Shown here one piece after another: positions 2,600-17,660 of a stretch of 64,000 nt of DNA. The DNA is taken from positions 50,108-114,107 of the forward strand of contig JAENZL010000004.1 of NCBI GenBank assembly GCA_016841265.1. Direction: 5' to 3'. The notes under the pieces were generated by a model, which had not been told where the DNA came from, did no database searches, and saw only the letters and a list, made by a program, of their open reading frames with translations. Made by a program: the position numbers and the translations under genes. This DNA is from Methanobacteriota archaeon (GTDB lineage Archaea; Halobacteriota; Methanosarcinia; Methanosarcinales; Methanosarcinaceae). The number at the start of each line of letters is the position of its first letter. Within the stretch, counting starts at the first letter, position 1.

Positions 2600-4018
2600 A
2601 TGAGAATTATGTTAAAAAACCTGGAAAATATTGGAAAATTATTATTGTTAACCTGTGTGATACTTATCGCATTGTCATCACCGGGAGCAGCTGTGACGGC
2701 AGAGGAAAACGCGCAGGCGATCTCTGACGTGCAGACAGCTCTTACCTTTGTATGGCTCCTGGTAGCAAGTGCCCTGGTATTCTTCATGCATACCGGGTTC
2801 TCAATGGTAGAAATCGGGCTTACGAGAAGCAAAAACACGGCAAACATTCTCATGAAAAACTTCATGACCGTGGTTCTCGGGATCCTGGTCTACTGGGCCG
2901 TGGGTTGGGGTGTCATGTATGGAGCTGATGCTTCAGGCCTGATAGGGACTGACCAGTTCTTCTTAATGGGGGCCGACAACGCGACCTTTAACGGCTGGTT
3001 CTTCCAGATGGTCTTTGCAGCAACCGGAGCAACTATCGTATCCGGGGCAATGGCTGAACGTACTGATTTCAAGGCATATCTGGTCTACTGTATCCTGATG
3101 GTTGCAATAATCTACCCCATTTACGGACACTGGGTCTGGAGCGGGGCTGACATGGCACTCCTGACCGGAGCTGAGAGCCCGATCGTCAAGGCAATCGGAG
3201 TCGCACACCACGACTTTGCGGGATCGGGAGTCGTACACTCCATTGGCGGATACTCTGCCCTTGCAGGAGTAATCCTCGTGGGGGCCAGGATAGGCAAGTT
3301 CAAGAAAGGAAAGCCTATGGCAATTCCGGGCCACAACCTGGCATTTGCTTTCTTCGGGACTTTGATCCTTGCCCTTGGCTGGATAGGGTTCAACGGAGGA
3401 AGTACCCTTGACGGAAACGATGCTTACATGAACCTTGTCGTGGTCAACACTTTCATTGCAGGCGCTGCAGGCGCTGTCATAGTAATGCTGATCACCTGGA
3501 TGAAGACAGGGAAACCTGACCCGTCCCTTACAGCAAACGGGCTTCTCGGCGGACTTGTTGCAATCACCGCCCCCTGTGGATCAGTTAGTCCCTGGGCAGC
3601 CCTTGTTATCGGAACCATTGCAGGATTTGTGATTTATTTCGGGGTAATGTTCAACGAAAACGTCCTCAAGGTAGACGACCCCGTAGGTGCGATTGTAGTA
3701 CACGGGTACTGCGGAAGCTGGGGCCTGCTCTCAGTAGGGCTTTTCTCCATAGGAATGGGGAACGGAATCCTTGCAGACGCGGTCTATGCCGCTGAAGTCC
3801 CGGGCCTGCTCTATGGCGGTGGAATAGGACTGCTAACAATCCAGACAGTGGCTGTAATCATCAGCATGATCTGGGGATTCGGGATGTCATATATAATCTT
3901 CAAGATAATTGACGCAGTAATCGGACTGCGGGTGCCCGAAGACGTTGAAATCATGGGTCTGGACATCGCTGAACACGGCATAAGGGCATACCCTGAATAC
4001 CAGCCTGCAGAGGACTAA
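2600..4018 (+). CDS. amt: ammonium transporter Amt
   Basis: Membrane channel for ammonium uptake. After a signal-like hydrophobic N-terminus the protein has about 11 transmembrane segments, with family motifs including GAMAERTDF, the first pore histidine in VVHSIGG and the second in VVHGYCGSWG. AGGAGG at 2591-2596 precedes two in-frame ATGs (2600 and 2609). An upstream ATG at 2528 is also in frame but has no ribosome-binding site. glnK follows 12 bp downstream, the usual Amt-GlnK pair in which GlnK blocks the channel when nitrogen is sufficient. Expression is expected to respond to nitrogen, though I found no clear operator. Confidence 0.95.
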   Translation: MRIMLKNLENIGKLLLLTCVILIALSSPGAAVTAEENAQAISDVQTALTFVWLLVASALVFFMHTGFSMVEIGLTRSKNTANILMKNFMTVVLGILVYWAVGWGVMYGADASGLIGTDQFFLMGADNATFNGWFFQMVFAATGATIVSGAMAERTDFKAYLVYCILMVAIIYPIYGHWVWSGADMALLTGAESPIVKAIGVAHHDFAGSGVVHSIGGYSALAGVILVGARIGKFKKGKPMAIPGHNLAFAFFGTLILALGWIGFNGGSTLDGNDAYMNLVVVNTFIAGAAGAVIVMLITWMKTGKPDPSLTANGLLGGLVAITAPCGSVSPWAALVIGTIAGFVIYFGVMFNENVLKVDDPVGAIVVHGYCGSWGLLSVGLFSIGMGNGILADAVYAAEVPGLLYGGGIGLLTIQTVAVIISMIWGFGMSYIIFKIIDAVIGLRVPEDVEIMGLDIAEHGIRAYPEYQPAED

Positions 4019-4030
4019 GAGGTGATCTGA

Positions 4031-4369
<339 letters not shown>

Positions 4370-4440
4370 AAGCATCCCTCTCCTATTTCCTTAATTTATT
4401 TCCCGGGGTGAAAAACACCTGAAAAGGATCATTCCAAAAA

Positions 4441-4475
4441 ATCTCAAAACATCAAAACATCAAAACATCAAAACC
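4441..4475. repeat. 10-bp tandem repeat
   Basis: About three copies of a CAAAACATCA-like unit in the spacer between glnK and the next gene. It is one of many locus-specific short repeats in this window. Nothing else is visible in the 235-bp spacer apart from an AT-rich possible promoter near 4537. Confidence 0.7.
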
Positions 4476-4604
4476 GTTAAAAGCTAAAAAGCTGCAGACC
4501 TGCAAAAAACAAAGATCAAATTGTATTCTCTTCAAATTTTAATAAACATGAAATTGATAATAAAACCCAGACAGTAAAAACAACTTTAAACCCGGTAGGT
4601 ATCC

Positions 4605-5054
4605 ATGATGTCAGAATTCAAATCAGTATCAGAATTCAATGCAAAAAACGTAAACTTCGAGATCCCTCGAGGATACGGAACGTCCATCATCAAGTTTTAT
4701 TTCTGGATCGGGCTCGTATCCGCAGTCCTGCTGAGGGCCATAATAATAGCTGACCACTACAGCGCATTCTACGCAAAAGTGATCTGGTATCTCGGGGTCA
4801 CAGGATACCTCTGGTTCTTCATGCATAGATACCATATCGCTAAGCGCAGATTCAGCGTCATAAAGGACCTGGAGCTGCTTAAAAAAATCCGAACCCAGCA
4901 AAAACTCTCTGAAAAAGATATTGAAGGGCTCGATTATCTGCTATGGAGCCTCTCGGTTTCCAAAGAGCGCTCAAACTATCTGGTAATCTCGGTATTTTCC
5001 GTGATTTCAATCGTGTTGTCCCTTATTCTGGACCTGGGGATCCTTAACATCTAA
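4605..5054 (+). CDS. small membrane protein of unknown function
   Basis: I do not recognise this 149-residue protein. It has an N-terminal soluble stretch, two hydrophobic segments at about residues 27-46 and 52-72, a basic helix-rich loop (HRYHIAKRRF, then about 40 charged residues), and a C-terminal hydrophobic segment (about 125-147), so three membrane helices are likely. Codon use matches its neighbours. The start follows CGGTAGGT with two adjacent ATGs (4605, 4608). It stands alone between the amt-glnK pair and two Hsp20-like genes. Confidence 0.6.
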   Translation: MMSEFKSVSEFNAKNVNFEIPRGYGTSIIKFYFWIGLVSAVLLRAIIIADHYSAFYAKVIWYLGVTGYLWFFMHRYHIAKRRFSVIKDLELLKKIRTQQKLSEKDIEGLDYLLWSLSVSKERSNYLVISVFSVISIVLSLILDLGILNI

Positions 5055-5303
5055 AAGGGACTTCCCCCAATTTTCTCCCCTACTATTTTTACATGAAATT
5101 CAACAATTCTTGAATCAAAACTTTCGAAATCAAACTTTTTTAGGCTTGAAGAGTTCCGGAAACTTCTCACCTTAAACTGCCTGGAACCACCCTAAAACAT
5201 CTGAAAAAACATGAAAAAACCAGAGAACACCTTAAAACATCTTAAACCAGAGAAACAGGACCACTTGCCGCTCCAGAATATATTTAAAGATATGAATAAG
5301 AAA

Positions 5304-5314
5304 TCTATATAATA
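5304..5314 (+). promoter_or_regulatory. TATA element of the Hsp20-like pair
   Basis: TCTATATAATA lies about 32 bp before the start codon at 5346, a spacing that allows a short leader carrying the GGGGGAG ribosome-binding site at 5335-5341. The preceding 250 bp (5055-5303) is AT-rich and shows no gene. Confidence 0.5.
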
Positions 5315-5345
5315 CATAGCTGATTATGATCTTAGGGGGAGTGTT

Positions 5346-5645
5346 ATGGCAGAAGTTTTGAGATTATCCCCAGCTATCTGCGCATATCCTGACGAGAAGT
5401 ATGAAAATTTGAAGATTGAAGTTATACTTCCGGGGATTGAGAAAGAAAACAGATATTTCAAGCTGGCAGAAGACGGTTTCTACGTAAAAGCGACAAAAGA
5501 GGGAGTGGAATACGTAGACAGTTATTCGATCTGCTGCCCGGTAAACACTGACAAAGCCGTTGCCACCTATTCAAAAGGGATTCTGAAGGTCACTGTCCCC
5601 TACCAGGAGCCCTTTGAAAATGTAGTGGACGTGAAAATCGAATAA
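5346..5645 (+). CDS. Hsp20/alpha-crystallin-like protein, copy 1
   Basis: A 99-residue protein consisting almost only of an alpha-crystallin-like beta-sandwich (YENLKIEVILPGIEKEN near the start and KGILKVTVPYQEP near the end, the characteristic last strands). It lacks the N-terminal arm and C-terminal I-x-I tail used by typical small heat-shock proteins to form large oligomers, so it may be a minimal or divergent chaperone. A clear GGGGGAG ribosome-binding site precedes the ATG. A second homologue follows 62 bp downstream. Confidence 0.8.
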   Translation: MAEVLRLSPAICAYPDEKYENLKIEVILPGIEKENRYFKLAEDGFYVKATKEGVEYVDSYSICCPVNTDKAVATYSKGILKVTVPYQEPFENVVDVKIE

Positions 5646-5707
5646 ATGCCTGAAACAGTAAACAGGAATCCAGACCGGAGTACCTAATTTTTTCGGGGAG
5701 GGGCATT

Positions 5708-6016
5708 ATGGAAAATCCGATACCTAAGATAATGAAAACTCCTATAATAGCAATGTATCATGATGATGAGCATGAAAACCTCACAGTTGAGGTTGAATTG
5801 CCGGATGTGGAAAATGAAAACATAACCCTCATGATGCATGAGAACAGCTTTTATCTGAAGGCCTTCAGCAATAGCGTTGAGTACCTGGGGTCCTTTTTTA
5901 TGGACGGGCCTGTGGACCCCGAAAAAGCCATAGCGACGAACAATAAAGGTATGCTTACGATTAACGTCCCATATAAAAAAGGCTTCCTGTGCGCAAGAAA
6001 CATACCAATTAAATAA
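5708..6016 (+). CDS. Hsp20/alpha-crystallin-like protein, copy 2
   Basis: A 102-residue paralogue of the preceding gene: HENLTVEVELPDVENEN, KAFSNSVEYLG and KGMLTINVPYKKG align with the corresponding segments of copy 1, so the pair arose by tandem duplication and then diverged. It also lacks the C-terminal I-x-I anchor. GGGGAGGGGC precedes the ATG. Probably co-transcribed with copy 1. A role as a small chaperone is inferred from the fold only. Confidence 0.8.
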   Translation: MENPIPKIMKTPIIAMYHDDEHENLTVEVELPDVENENITLMMHENSFYLKAFSNSVEYLGSFFMDGPVDPEKAIATNNKGMLTINVPYKKGFLCARNIPIK

Positions 6017-6108
6017 AAGCTATGGGCTAGAATCGGAATGTAAAAACAGAAAACTTATTTTTTTGATATTAATTTTACCCGTATTCCTTGAAAAGAAGAG
6101 GGAATCCC

Positions 6109-6318
6109 ATGAAGATAGTAAAATGCGGAGATCTTGGATTCAGGTGCAATTTTATTGCAACCGGCACCAACGCCGAGCAGGTAAAAAAAGAAATGTTCGA
6201 GCACATAGAAAAGGAACATAAGGACCTTCTCGAAGAGATGTCCGAAGACGACATAAACCACATAAAATACAGGATCTCGACTCTTCTTGCCCGGAGCTGC
6301 GGCTGCGGTGCCCTTTGA
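6109..6318 (+). CDS. DUF1059 family small protein
   Basis: A 69-residue protein with the DUF1059 pattern: KCGDLGFRCNFIATG near the start, then a charged helix (EQVKKEMFEHIEKEH). Members are small Cys-containing proteins of unknown function found in many archaea and bacteria. Unusually, it ends with a C-x-C (CGCG) motif that could bind metal. I chose the ATG at 6109 with GAGGG upstream; an in-frame TTG at 6088 would add seven residues. Confidence 0.75.
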   Translation: MKIVKCGDLGFRCNFIATGTNAEQVKKEMFEHIEKEHKDLLEEMSEDDINHIKYRISTLLARSCGCGAL

Positions 6319-6519
6319 AGCCAACCACCCGCCAATAAATTTACGGGCATGTAATGTGCCCTTGTTGACCAGATCCTGAGTTTAGCTCAGGGGTAGTTGA
6401 CTTCAATTTTGATTTTTACTTCCCTGAAACTTCCACATCCATATACAGATTTATTTCCGTTACTATTATAGTACACCCGTATTACACCCGTAGTTTCATT
6501 GAAATTGGGGACCCTTACC

Positions 6520-13057: not shown

Positions 13058-14092
13058 ATGGCAGAAGGAAAACCAATTAGCAAGAGTTACATTGACCTTG
13101 AAAAGGAAGTCTGGGACGCAGACCTCTGCTCAGGCTGCGGGGCCTGCATTGCGGTCTGCCCTGCCGACGCCCTTTATTTCGAAACCGGAATCGATTCCGC
13201 AAAGCCCAAGAACAACGGCTACTGCAAAGCCGCAGTTGACGACGTATCCTGTGGAGCCTGCTATGAGGTCTGCCCGAGGATAGGCGAACAGCCCGAATCC
13301 ATCTTCGGGGACTATCTTAAGATCACCGCCGCAAAAGCCGAGTTCGATATCCCGAGAAAACAGAGCGGGGGAGCCGTTACAGCCCTCCTTGCAAACGCCC
13401 TGGATACCGGCCTTGTGGATGCCGTGGTCACGGTCACCGAAGACTCCTGGACCCTCAAACCGCACTCCGTGGTTATCACAAAAAGCGAGGCCCTGATAAA
13501 CCAGGCCGGAAGCCGCTATAACTGGTGGGTCCCCCTGGTCTCGGCCCTCAAGGAAGCCGTGGTCACCCGGAAATACCGGAACATCGCAGTTGTCGGTGTC
13601 CCCTGCGTCGTCCAGGCAGTCAGGAAAATGCTCGAAAGCGACCACGACCTTGTCCGCCCGTACAAAGACTCCATCCGCTTCGTGATCGGCCTCTTCTGTA
13701 CCGAAAGCTTCGACTACGAAAAGCTGGTCGCAGGCAAGCTGAAAAGCGAGTACGCTCTCGAGCCCATGAAAGTTTGCCGCATCGACGTCAAAGGCAAGCT
13801 CGAAATCACCCTCAACGACGGGACCCAGTACGTAATCCCCCTTGCCGAACTCGAGGACACCGTCCGCCCCGGCTGCCATGTCTGCACGGACTTTACAGCC
13901 CTCAAAGCCGACATCTCCGCAGGCGCGGTTGGAAGCCCGAACGGCTACACCACCCTGATCGTCCGCACCCTGGTAGGACAGCACCTTCTGGAAAGCGCGG
14001 TTGCCAGCGGGAAGCTCAGCACCACCGATGAGCTCAACCTCGGAATCGTCGAGAAGCTTGGCGCAAAGAAGCTCGAGCGGAAACAGAAATAA
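13058..14092 (+). CDS. FrhB/FpoF-family F420-oxidising subunit linked to glutamate synthase
   Basis: A 344-residue protein with an N-terminal two-cluster ferredoxin (CSGCGACIAVC near residue 24 and CGACYEVC near residue 66) followed by the FrhB domain (KQSGGAVTALL, GVPCVVQAV, GLFCTESF), the fold that binds FAD and hydride-accepting F420 in F420-reducing hydrogenase. It is the fourth gene of the glutamate synthase operon, so it probably supplies electrons from F420H2 in place of the NADPH-linked GltD, which is absent. I chose the ATG at 13058 because GGGAGTGATC at 13045-13054 precedes it; a GTG at 13049 is possible. Confidence 0.88.
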   Translation: MAEGKPISKSYIDLEKEVWDADLCSGCGACIAVCPADALYFETGIDSAKPKNNGYCKAAVDDVSCGACYEVCPRIGEQPESIFGDYLKITAAKAEFDIPRKQSGGAVTALLANALDTGLVDAVVTVTEDSWTLKPHSVVITKSEALINQAGSRYNWWVPLVSALKEAVVTRKYRNIAVVGVPCVVQAVRKMLESDHDLVRPYKDSIRFVIGLFCTESFDYEKLVAGKLKSEYALEPMKVCRIDVKGKLEITLNDGTQYVIPLAELEDTVRPGCHVCTDFTALKADISAGAVGSPNGYTTLIVRTLVGQHLLESAVASGKLSTTDELNLGIVEKLGAKKLERKQK

Positions 14093-14113
14093 AATTTCTT
14101 CAAAAATGGATTT

Positions 14114-14140
14114 AGATGGAGCAAGCTCCATCTTTTTACT
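14114..14140 (+). terminator. terminator of the glutamate synthase operon
   Basis: A perfect inverted repeat AGATGGAGC / GCTCCATCT (14114-14133, separated by AA) is followed directly by a T-run, 22 bp after the last stop codon. The 150 bp after it, up to the radical SAM gene, are empty. Confidence 0.75.
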
Positions 14141-14266
14141 TTCTTATGGCAGGTAAAATCCTACACATGCCCCCGATAAAAATCGGAAACAAGGTCAAAA
14201 ATCACATTCATGAATAGCCAAAAATCATATTGAAACAATAGAGTTTCTTGAATAAGAGAGGGTTAT

Positions 14267-15409
14267 TCAACCCCGTTGAGACTTTTTCATATATGCTTTA
14301 TCTAATTCTTCAGTTATGACATTATCAATATGTTTAAGCAACATTTTGTATGCATGACAAAATTGATCCTTCTTATTTATATCCCCATAAGTTGAATATG
14401 CATTATGTGGGCAACCACTATGACATTTATCAAAAAACTCGCAGTCTTTGCATTCATATACATTCCTATCAATGAATGAATTCCTCTTTGGATTATGTTC
14501 CATAAGGTTTTCAAGGCTGTCCACATTTATGTTTCCGTATTTAAACTCCTTATTTCCAGCAAATCTGCCACATGGATATACATCCCCTTTATCATCAACA
14601 GAAACAAATGTATCTTGACAGGTATCATGGAAACTACAACCAACTGGGCTATTAGATAGTATCATAGATACAAAGTCTTCAAACTGAGATACAGAAACAA
14701 ATTCATCTTCCAAGAACCATCTATTAAATAATTTAATTAATTCTAACCCATATTTTTTAGGACTAAGCTCGAGATCTTTATGCTTATTTGCTCTTCCATC
14801 AAGGTATACAGGGTTAAACTTAACGCCTATATTTTCTTGCTTAAAAAAAGAATAAATTTCTTCTATACTATCAATATTCTTACCAGTAAGGATACATATT
14901 GCTCCAAACCTCATATCATTTTTTTTCATGAGCTCTATAGAATTCATTATACACCTAAAAGTCCCACTTCCATCTGGATAAATACGTGTTAAATTGTTTA
15001 CTTCTTCAGGCCCATCAAGACTTAACCCTATAGTAAAATCGTTTTTTTTAAAGAAATCAATCCATTCTTGATTCATTAAAGTTCCATTTGTCTGAACCGT
15101 ATTTATTATCCATTGATTTGAGCTTTTTTCTCTTTTTTCGATCTCAATAACTTTTTCATAGAAATCAATTCCCATTAAAAGCGGCTCTCCACCATGCCAT
15201 ATATATTCTATACCATCATATGTTCTTTGCAACTTTGAGATCATATTTTCTAGAGTTTCATAACTCATCATCTCCCCCTCGCCACTTTCTGCATAGCAGT
15301 ACTTACAAGCAAGGTTGCACCTATTTGTTGGTTTAACTATAACAGATACTTTTTTATGTTTTAAGTTCTGCTCTAAACTTGAATACTTTTGAATAGTGTT
15401 AGAAGTCAT
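14267..15409 (-). CDS. SPASM-domain radical SAM enzyme, probable peptide maturase
   Basis: A 380-residue radical SAM protein. CNLACKYC (Cys31, 35, 38) is the CX3CX2C site for the SAM-binding cluster; HGGEPLL and TNGTL are typical core motifs. The C-terminus carries a SPASM domain, with GDVYPC and CKDCEFFDKCHSGC, an exact CX2CX5CX3C pattern, then a last Cys in QFCHAYK. Anaerobic sulfatase maturases and RiPP-modifying enzymes share this layout. No sulfatase is nearby. The gene is far more AT-rich than its neighbours, suggesting transfer. I chose the ATG at 15409, because upstream in-frame starts run into the insertion sequence. Before that insertion it was divergent from the small Tyr-rich ORF at 17065. 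Confidence 0.85.
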   Translation of the reverse strand: MTSNTIQKYSSLEQNLKHKKVSVIVKPTNRCNLACKYCYAESGEGEMMSYETLENMISKLQRTYDGIEYIWHGGEPLLMGIDFYEKVIEIEKREKSSNQWIINTVQTNGTLMNQEWIDFFKKNDFTIGLSLDGPEEVNNLTRIYPDGSGTFRCIMNSIELMKKNDMRFGAICILTGKNIDSIEEIYSFFKQENIGVKFNPVYLDGRANKHKDLELSPKKYGLELIKLFNRWFLEDEFVSVSQFEDFVSMILSNSPVGCSFHDTCQDTFVSVDDKGDVYPCGRFAGNKEFKYGNINVDSLENLMEHNPKRNSFIDRNVYECKDCEFFDKCHSGCPHNAYSTYGDINKKDQFCHAYKMLLKHIDNVITEELDKAYMKKSQRG

Positions 15410-15476
15410 AATTAAAATACATATGTGCATATAGATAAATGTAGTGAAAAGAAAAAATATATAATTTATATAAAAA

Positions 15477-17001
15477 CAGTACTTCACCAACTCGTAAGCA
15501 GCGATTCTAATATTGATTTTCCGATATAATACTAAAATTATACATGTGTGGGTTATTTTATTTACAACCTATGGCTGAGACAAAACACGAATCAAAAAAT
15601 ACTGATGTTTGTACTTTGGATGGAGCCAAATGTATAAACCCCGTTGTTAAATTGCTTGTTAAACATGTTCCAATGTCTATTAGATCAAGCCAAACCCCTA
15701 ATCAATTTTTCAAGGTTCTAACGTCACTGGCTATCCAAAAGTTATCCATACACTCAATTCAAAGTCCAGGTTCAAACATACCCAGCGAAAACTCGTTACA
15801 TCATAATCTGAAAAAAATCGACATAGAACAGTTAGAAACAGTAAATCACCTTATGCTTGCTGAACAAGTTAAGCCTTTCATAATACCCGGCAAAAAGTGT
15901 GCATTTGCTATTGATATTACAGATGATCCTTACTATGGGGAAAAGAATGGAGATTATGTTGTTGGTGGAAAAAGAAAAGCATCAATTAACCGCTTTTTCT
16001 CATACGCAACGTGTTATTTAATTGATGGGAAAAGGAAGTTTACAATCGGAGTTATTCCAAAAAAAAGAAGATGTTAATGATTGATTTCGTAACTAAATTC
16101 ACAGAAATTATTCATGAACTTGGCGTCAAAGTAAAAGTTCTGTGTATTGATCGCGAATTCTACACACATGCAGTGATGGGATATCTCCAGGCAGCGAAGA
16201 TTCCATTTATTGTTCCTGTTAAGGTTCAAGGGAAACAGATGAAGGAACTGCTACAAGTAAAGAGATCATGTTGCTTTGAGTATGTTATGTCTCCACAAGG
16301 AAAGGAGCCATTAAACCTCAATATTGTAGTCTGTGTGAATTATTTGAAAGGTAAAAAAGATAAAAATGGATTAGAAATTCATGCCTTTTCAGTTGGTGGT
16401 TTTACAGATCCAAAAAAAGTCTCAAAAATGTATGAGCGAAGGTTCTCAATTGAATCTTCTTACCGAATCCGCAATACATCCAAACCGAGGACTTCGTCTA
16501 AAAAACCAGAAGTACGCTACCTTTATACGATTATTTCGTTTTTAATCCAAAATCACTGGGTAACATTACAGTGGAACTATTTTGTGAAAAGACAAACTGG
16601 TCCAAAAATTATTGATGAGGATAAATTTCGTTTTGATACATTTAAAATGATTTCGTGGAGCTACTTAAAAAGGTTGTTTCGAATCCCAGATGGGGTGGTT
16701 ACTCTAAGCAATATTAAGTACGGCTGAGTGCAAAAAAGCATTTGACGTAGTTTGATTTGGAAGATATAGTACAATAGTTATAGCGTAGCATATCGATTTT
16801 TAGGTATCATTGGCCTTAAAACACGAGCTGATTCTATGTGTTTGAGACAATTTCAACTGGAAATTTTTTATTTATCCAGCCAATTCAAACTTGGAACAAA
16901 TATTGTGGTAGAAATAATCAAGGTTTAACACTCAGTTATTGTAAAAATAAAATAAGTACATGAGATCTTGATGATAATTCAAGTCAATTGGTGAAGTACT
17001 G
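15477..17001 (+). mobile_element. ISH3-like insertion sequence with 14-bp terminal inverted repeats
   Basis: CAGTACTTCACCAA (15477-15490) and its exact reverse complement TTGGTGAAGTACTG (16988-17001) bound a 1,525-bp element. It is flanked by AAAAA on each side (15472-15476 and 17002-17006), consistent with a 5-bp target duplication, although both flanks are A-rich. The only gene inside is an ISH3/IS4-type transposase split by a frameshift. The 260 bp after the transposase (16728-16987) is non-coding IS tail. The element sits between the radical SAM gene and the small Tyr-rich ORF. Confidence 0.88.
15544..16727 (+). pseudogene. ISH3-family transposase, frameshifted
   Basis: Two overlapping frames (15544-16077 and 16071-16727) together give one DDE transposase of about 394 residues. 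The catalytic Asp in FAIDITDDPYYG, the second Asp in LCIDREFY and the Glu in RRFSIESSYR are all present, so the frame change is the only visible lesion. The shift is -1 and falls at a run of eight A (16059-16066), in register with a slippery A-AAA-AAA heptamer. It is therefore either a homopolymer indel (a pseudogene or sequencing error) or a programmed frameshift. ISH3 elements are not known to me to use frameshifting, so pseudogene is the default. Confidence 0.8.
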
Positions 17002-17064
17002 AAAAAACAAAAAAACTAAATAAATTCGCCTCGTAGGAGGTATATTGTATCTAAGGTGGTTGTA

Positions 17065-17361
17065 ATGGTGAATCTAGAAAAGTATAAAAATTTAAAAGTT
17101 ATGGATATTGAAAATCCGATTCTAAGAAAATTAATTGAAAATGAATGTCGCGGAAATACAGAAGAATTTCTTTTTAATATATTTCTTGCAGGATATTCAG
17201 AGGGTTATTATACAGAATATAAAGATAAAGGGAAAAAAAAGATGAAGCATACTGACTATACTGAAACATATAGGGATTCATATACTGATTATCCTGAAGG
17301 TGGGAATCCCAATCACCATCTTGCTGGTAGTAACGTACCAGGTAAGGGGGAACGACCCTAA
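17065..17361 (+). CDS. small Tyr-x-Asp/Glu-rich peptide, candidate RiPP precursor
   Basis: I do not recognise this 98-residue protein from a family. An AAGGTGG ribosome-binding site (17053-17059) lies five bases before the ATG. Residues 1-40 look like a leader (helical, charged). Residues 44-76 then contain six Tyr-x-acidic triplets: Y44SE, Y49TE, Y52KD, Y65TE, Y69RD and Y73TD. Such aromatic-x-acidic triplets are the kind of motif cross-linked by SPASM enzymes that form three-residue cyclophanes. It lies 64 bp right of the insertion sequence and, without it, would be divergent from the radical SAM gene. Base composition becomes GC-richer after codon 78, so the tail (GG onward) may come from a DNA junction. 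Confidence 0.6.
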   Translation: MVNLEKYKNLKVMDIENPILRKLIENECRGNTEEFLFNIFLAGYSEGYYTEYKDKGKKKMKHTDYTETYRDSYTDYPEGGNPNHHLAGSNVPGKGERP

Positions 17362-17660
17362 ATTCCTAATTGTTAGGCCCATCGACGCCTCTTGATGTTG
17401 AATCGTGCGCTCAAATGTAAGCATATCACCCATTTGGCTGAATTTCAAAATCGGCATATATTGAGATAGTCGGTCAAATAGGAGTCTTTTTATTTCTTCC
17501 GGGGAGGTGCCGCCAGGCAAACTGGCGGGGGCACTTTCTAACGTCCGGATTGAAATCGATTTCCGGGTTCAAGGGAAGTATTTCTCGGGCCAGGCGGACT
17601 ATTTCTCTGTAACGTTCAAGACCTCTATAGTATTCAATCTGGATTCTTTATTTTCTCAAA
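17278..17660. other. junction region with antisense coding-like fragment and hairpin
   Basis: On the minus strand, 17278-17520 encodes an 80-residue frame (starting MPGGTSPEEIKRLLF) with protein-like composition that I cannot assign. It overlaps the 3' end of the Tyr-rich ORF and has no gene context, so it may be a remnant of a larger gene. A strong GC-rich hairpin (GTGCCGCCAG, loop GCAAA, CTGGCG...GCAC) covers 17507-17534. The remaining bases to 17660 show no gene. Confidence 0.35.

Follow-up and report, generated by a model that had tools for sequence, protein, structure and literature searches.

The question raised by this locus is whether a radical SAM/SPASM enzyme gene and a small ORF rich in Tyr-x-acidic triplets, which now lie on either side of an insertion sequence, belong to a single RiPP system. 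Both are found in a 64,000-nucleotide stretch of an archaeal contig, referred to here as the window. The reading that we favor, as possible rather than probable, is that they represent a minimal RiPP cassette of two genes that was acquired horizontally, performs Tyr-to-acidic i+2 cross-linking, and was later the target of an ISH3-family insertion. In archaea, radical SAM-modified RiPP clusters have been predicted, and identified RiPP products are scarce (PMC12144867). With its many Tyr-x-acidic repeats in the core, such a cassette would be a compact and testable substrate for studying the action of a SPASM enzyme along repeated motifs, and the same cassette could show whether Glu substitutes for Asp at the third position.

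The insertion sequence and the accessory island

The radical SAM/SPASM enzyme gene encompasses nucleotides 14267 to 15409 of the reverse strand (380 aa, ATG at 15409, stop codon at 14267), and the small ORF nucleotides 17065 to 17361 of the forward strand (98 aa, ATG at 17065). As stated in the preliminary description, the two start codons flank a 1,525-bp ISH3-like element. This insertion sequence, located at nucleotides 15477 to 17001 on the forward strand, was defined by its matches to the ISH3 model and by a perfect 14-bp terminal inverted repeat, CAGTACTTCACCAA (15477-15490 and 16988-17001). It includes two frameshifted transposase halves on the forward strand (15544-16077 and 16071-16727), whose best NCBIfam match is ISH3 (NF033541); they match adjoining parts of the model with 65 and 141 bits (E 8.5e-18 and 3.9e-41), each under the full-length cutoff of 225 bits. 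The sequence AAAAA is present on the left (15472-15476) and on the right (17002-17006) of the element and can be read as a putative 5-bp target duplication, of which it is weak evidence, being of low complexity in A-rich DNA. The only other copy of the element found in the host genome is a 367-bp right-end remnant with 93% identity (contig C25, 34813-35179), which includes the right terminal sequence and thus supports the right boundary of the insertion sequence. The element is located 63 to 67 bp from both start codons. When it is excised together with one copy of AAAAA, the start codons are divergent and 67 + 58 = 125 bp apart, and the coordinates therefore agree with the spacing of about 125 bp that had been proposed for the uninterrupted pair.

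Both genes are part of an accessory island (14146-17486) that was delimited by its AT-rich composition and by BLAST of its flanks against three genomes of the same genus (G001 to G003). The flanks are 84-95% identical in these genomes, and none of the three has the interval of approximately 14146 to 17486. The G+C content is 32% in both the enzyme gene and the small ORF, compared with 56-58% in the left neighbors and 47% in the right neighbor; the earlier statement that both genes are AT-rich with respect to their surroundings thus stands. From the composition and the absence in relatives we infer a foreign, horizontal origin for the island. The same-genus genomes lack both genes, and the ancestral adjacency of the pair is therefore argued only from the anatomy of the insertion sequence and the shared composition.

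Other DNA is found at this site in the relatives: the flanks are on one contig with about 4 kb between them in G002 and about 24 kb in G001. The region C1:446291-474424 of G001 includes four extra copies, 92-94% identical, of the last ~250 bp of the left-hand FrhB-like gene, whose end in the window corresponds to nucleotides 13888 to 14145. The longest of these copies ends where the island of the window begins, and one extra copy is present in G003. The spread of the extra copies of the gene end through the G001 interval points to the end of the FrhB-like gene as an apparent integration hotspot. Two short dispersed repeats (17362-17465 and 17487-17605) have many sites in the genomes of the genus, with 72-90% identity, and the first of them starts directly after the stop codon of the small ORF. 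No Rfam family was found in the region, and the island includes no other convincing small ORF.

The enzyme and the sulfatase maturase question

The enzyme has a radical SAM CX3CX2C motif (C31/C35/C38), and the SPASM pattern CX2CX5CX3C, previously described as exact, is indeed so (C320/C323/C329/C333). It exceeds the Pfam cutoffs of both domains, scoring 85 bits with Radical_SAM and 26.6 bits with SPASM. The best-scoring relative found is a 36% identical enzyme encoded in the Bacteroidota genome G566; in the alignment of both proteins all three radical SAM cysteines are invariant, as are C258, C264, C280, C320, C323, C329, C333, and C351, and most of the invariant cysteines can be traced in the alignment to a solved structure of an anaerobic sulfatase maturase (anSME). 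On account of these motifs, the Pfam domains over cutoff and the invariant cysteines, the enzyme looks intact. The ATG at 15409 is the more plausible start codon since the longer listed ORF starts at a TTG located within the insertion sequence. AlphaFold2 run on the enzyme sequence alone produced no usable model (mean pLDDT 32).

The best NCBIfam model for the enzyme was that of the dynobactin maturase DynA (NF041298), with a match that spans nearly the whole model and a score of 324 bits, under the cutoff of 450; several of the lower-scoring NCBIfam models represent cross-linking peptide maturases. The scores were 274 bits with the anSME model TIGR03942 (cutoff 349) and 207 bits with TIGR04083 (cutoff 300), a family of methanogen peptide-modifying radical SAM enzymes. 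The proteins of this last family also have the radical SAM/SPASM architecture and a hypothesized peptide substrate, but the window enzyme, unlike its members, scores below the cutoff. Among the NCBIfam families listed the enzyme is over no curated cutoff, and it is under each of those of the named cyclophane-forming families GrrM/OscB, FxsB, XyeB, YhhB, and AmcB. With respect to DynA there is a difference in the substrate as well: the dynobactin core contains Trp-to-Asn and His-to-Tyr links, and the candidate precursor in the window is unlike that core as described (PMC11002830).

The domain architecture of the enzyme is also that of the anSMEs, and structures of these proteins are its best PDB matches, which together with the 274-bit score would speak for a sulfatase maturase. 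On the other hand, that score is under the cutoff, and both the alignment to the structure 4k36 and the multiple alignment show a Gly directly after the YPC ligand, at the position where anSMEs have an Asp that we take to be their catalytic residue. The G566 enzyme likewise has Gly at this position, and the sequence YPCGRFAG is common to both. The larger of two phylogenetic trees includes an anSME-type clade of 37 rows (support 99/85) with the window enzyme outside, and the enzyme was again outside the anSME clade (support 100/100) in a reduced tree, whose rows were our own choice made after the larger tree had been seen. The window and G566 enzymes are sisters in the reduced tree with weak support (87/66), a grouping that the larger tree did not recover as resolved. 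No ORF of the window matched the sulfatase motif pattern, and within these limits the earlier statement that no sulfatase is nearby is borne out. An anSME-type gene from the same sample does adjoin a sulfatase-like gene, so inspection of neighbors was able to detect sulfatases. As judged from its sequence, a role in peptide maturation appears to fit the enzyme better than one in sulfatase maturation, and we regard the latter as highly improbable.

The small ORF and its Tyr-x-acidic triplets

The small ORF, a candidate precursor peptide gene, is preceded by a Shine-Dalgarno-like sequence, AAGGTGG, on the same strand (17053-17059), 5 nt upstream of the ATG. Its G+C content at the first, second and third codon positions (45/30/20%) is of the coding type, and its codon score is the best of the six frames. 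A candidate core, residues 44 to 78 (nucleotides 17194-17298, forward strand), includes seven Y-x-D/E triplets and no Cys. The triplets, in order YSE, YTE, YKD, YTE, YRD, YTD, and YPE, start at Y44, Y49, Y52, Y65, Y69, Y73, and Y76 without overlap, account for seven of the nine Tyr residues of the protein, and end in Glu in four cases. The preliminary description had correctly noted the Tyr-x-acidic triplets, counting six of them instead of seven. Their enrichment is supported by a shuffle test, in which 1.45 triplets were expected (p ~ 2e-5, a post hoc value as the motif had been noticed before testing), and by the control ORFs of at least 200 aa, none of which (n = 328) had even five Y-x-D/E in any 35-aa stretch. 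Spacings from Tyr to an acidic residue of +1 and of +3 to +6 were not enriched.

The sole Cys of the small ORF, C28, is outside the triplet region, and the lack of Cys among the triplets excludes thioether chemistry there. A sactipeptide or ranthipeptide was rejected on the same grounds, the core having no Cys to act as thioether donors. The G+C content of the last 20 codons is 52% as compared to 26% before them, and because of this jump the ORF may have been joined to other DNA at its end, which would then not be the original one. The dispersed repeat was rejected as the source of this C-terminus, as it begins after the stop codon.

Relatives, proposed function and alternatives

No family match was found for the small ORF, nor a homologue in 393 genomes of the host phylum, plasmids, phages, and viral contigs; the scan of genome contigs relied on short exact peptide patterns and may for that reason have missed distant homologues. 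Its only match in that scan, in Flaviramulus, was a chance DSYTDYPE inside a larger protein, and a match in another genome (G429; E 0.007) has an internal stop and overlaps an unrelated membrane-protein gene; both were rejected. As for the enzyme, none but that of the window scored above 196 bits in the 393 genomes of the host phylum, and the enzyme of G566, with 246 bits, was the only one above that level in 395 genomes of Bacteroidota, the phylum of Flaviramulus. Archaeal enzymes with 33-36% identity are mostly of the anSME type, several with a SEC-C-like tail, and were not considered orthologues. The searches of viral contigs, plasmids, and phages revealed no close relative of the enzyme or of the small ORFs. 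The preliminary description had proposed the joint occurrence of enzyme and small ORF in a second genome as a test of their pairing; it was not found in the limited set of collections searched, which counts against the pair.

The neighborhood of the G566 enzyme is nevertheless of interest with respect to the RiPP reading. A 74-aa Cys-free ORF with a strong ribosome-binding site is located 26 bp downstream of the enzyme gene on the same strand, and its C-terminal end, EYSDYGNIYKYAFF (also given as GNEYSDYGNIYKYAFF), includes YSD and YGN. None of the 328 control ORFs, and 0.25% of the 20-aa control windows, had two Y-x-D/N in such a stretch of 20 residues, the last 20 in the case of the ORFs. 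No sulfatase-like ORF was seen in the 14 kb around the G566 enzyme. Both systems have in common a related enzyme and an adjoining small ORF with Tyr triplets, but they differ in that the G566 ORF follows its enzyme gene on the same strand, carries two triplets instead of seven, and gave no alignment to the small ORF of the window (E 1.8). From this single neighbor and at the level of sequence, a motif preference common to the two systems is plausible. Thus, of the RiPP reading of the preliminary description, the maturase-like nature of the enzyme and the association of such an enzyme with a small Tyr-x-Asp/Asn ORF found support, while the co-occurrence of the pair and the conservation of its triplets did not.

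The favored reading, a two-gene RiPP cassette, can be considered in the light of YxdB, a SPASM radical SAM enzyme that joins Tyr C3 to Asp Cbeta in Tyr-x-Asp to form a three-residue cyclophane, as summarized in PMC11002830. The window has features of such triceptide systems, namely Radical_SAM and SPASM domains over cutoff and, once the insertion sequence is removed, a Y-x-D/E peptide encoded 125 bp away. The two genes would act together: the enzyme would bind the N-terminal leader of the small-ORF product and, by analogy to YxdB acting on Tyr-x-Asp, form as many as seven C-C cross-links per peptide, each linking a Tyr with the Asp or Glu at i+2, presumably as three-residue cyclophanes. Later proteolysis and export would be carried out by other proteins. 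The ISH3-family element would have entered the 125-bp divergent intergenic region at a later time, breaking neither ORF. As far as the published description goes, YxdB-type triceptides (Sugiyama et al. 2022, via PMC11002830) likewise combine a SPASM enzyme with a small Tyr-x-Asp peptide; the window differs in the four of seven triplets that end in Glu, in its archaeal host, and in its divergent genes split by an insertion sequence. Our literature search found no cyclophane precedent for Glu at the third position. That the locus encodes an archaeal Tyr-x-Asp/Glu polycyclophane system with up to seven rings, including those at Glu, and hence a new triceptide family, possibly the first from a methanogen, is a doubtful proposition at this stage.

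Several other interpretations need to be weighed against this one, and taken together they receive roughly half of our confidence. The enzyme could modify the small peptide by a different reaction at Tyr, Asp, or Glu, such as a PqqE-like Tyr-to-Glu bond, an ether cross-link, or an epimerization; the product would be a RiPP all the same, though not a three-residue cyclophane. PqqE couples Tyr with Glu, the residue at the end of most of the triplets, and the enzyme is below the cutoffs of all the cyclophane families listed; but the fixed i to i+2 distance is that of three-residue cyclophanes, and PqqE acts across another spacing. We consider a different reaction unlikely. It is also conceivable, with a still smaller likelihood, that the cassette is a former RiPP pair whose function was ended by the insertion and by the alteration of the end of the small ORF. 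The proximity of the element to both start codons, the abrupt change of G+C content in the last 20 codons, and the dispersed repeat directly after the stop codon would fit such decay, against which stand the completeness of both ORFs and the conservation of the cluster-ligand cysteines of the enzyme.

The two genes might, finally, be unrelated neighbors brought together at a hotspot, with a different protein or peptide as the substrate of the enzyme and a separate role for the acidic, Tyr-rich ORF. This would be in line with their divergent orientation, with the lack of the pair in any second genome, and with the gathering of unrelated genes at this locus in relatives. The matching composition of the two genes, the similarly ended small ORF adjoining the G566 enzyme, and the lack of another convincing small ORF in the island argue in the opposite direction, and we judge chance proximity to be as improbable as decay.

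Other radical SAM loci were observed in the course of the searches. On the Cetobacterium somerae plasmid NZ_CP092524.1, at approximately 3836-6413, a radical SAM gene lies between an unannotated 29-aa ORF upstream, itself behind a ribosome-binding site, and an MFS transporter gene downstream. The 29-aa ORF has no Tyr-x-acidic motifs, and the locus was rejected as a relative; it may represent a radical SAM peptide system unrelated to that of the window. DynA-like radical SAM genes at two loci (L049, 680-3784, and L079, 76-2003) adjoin APH-type kinase-like genes, and a 70-aa ORF with the C-terminus VSYKEVHDKWEKSGW is present at L049 as well. At a further locus (L086, 1038-3414), a gene for a 444-aa radical SAM protein and one for an APH-type kinase are preceded by a 51-aa ORF ending in GYDGCGTHGHQ.
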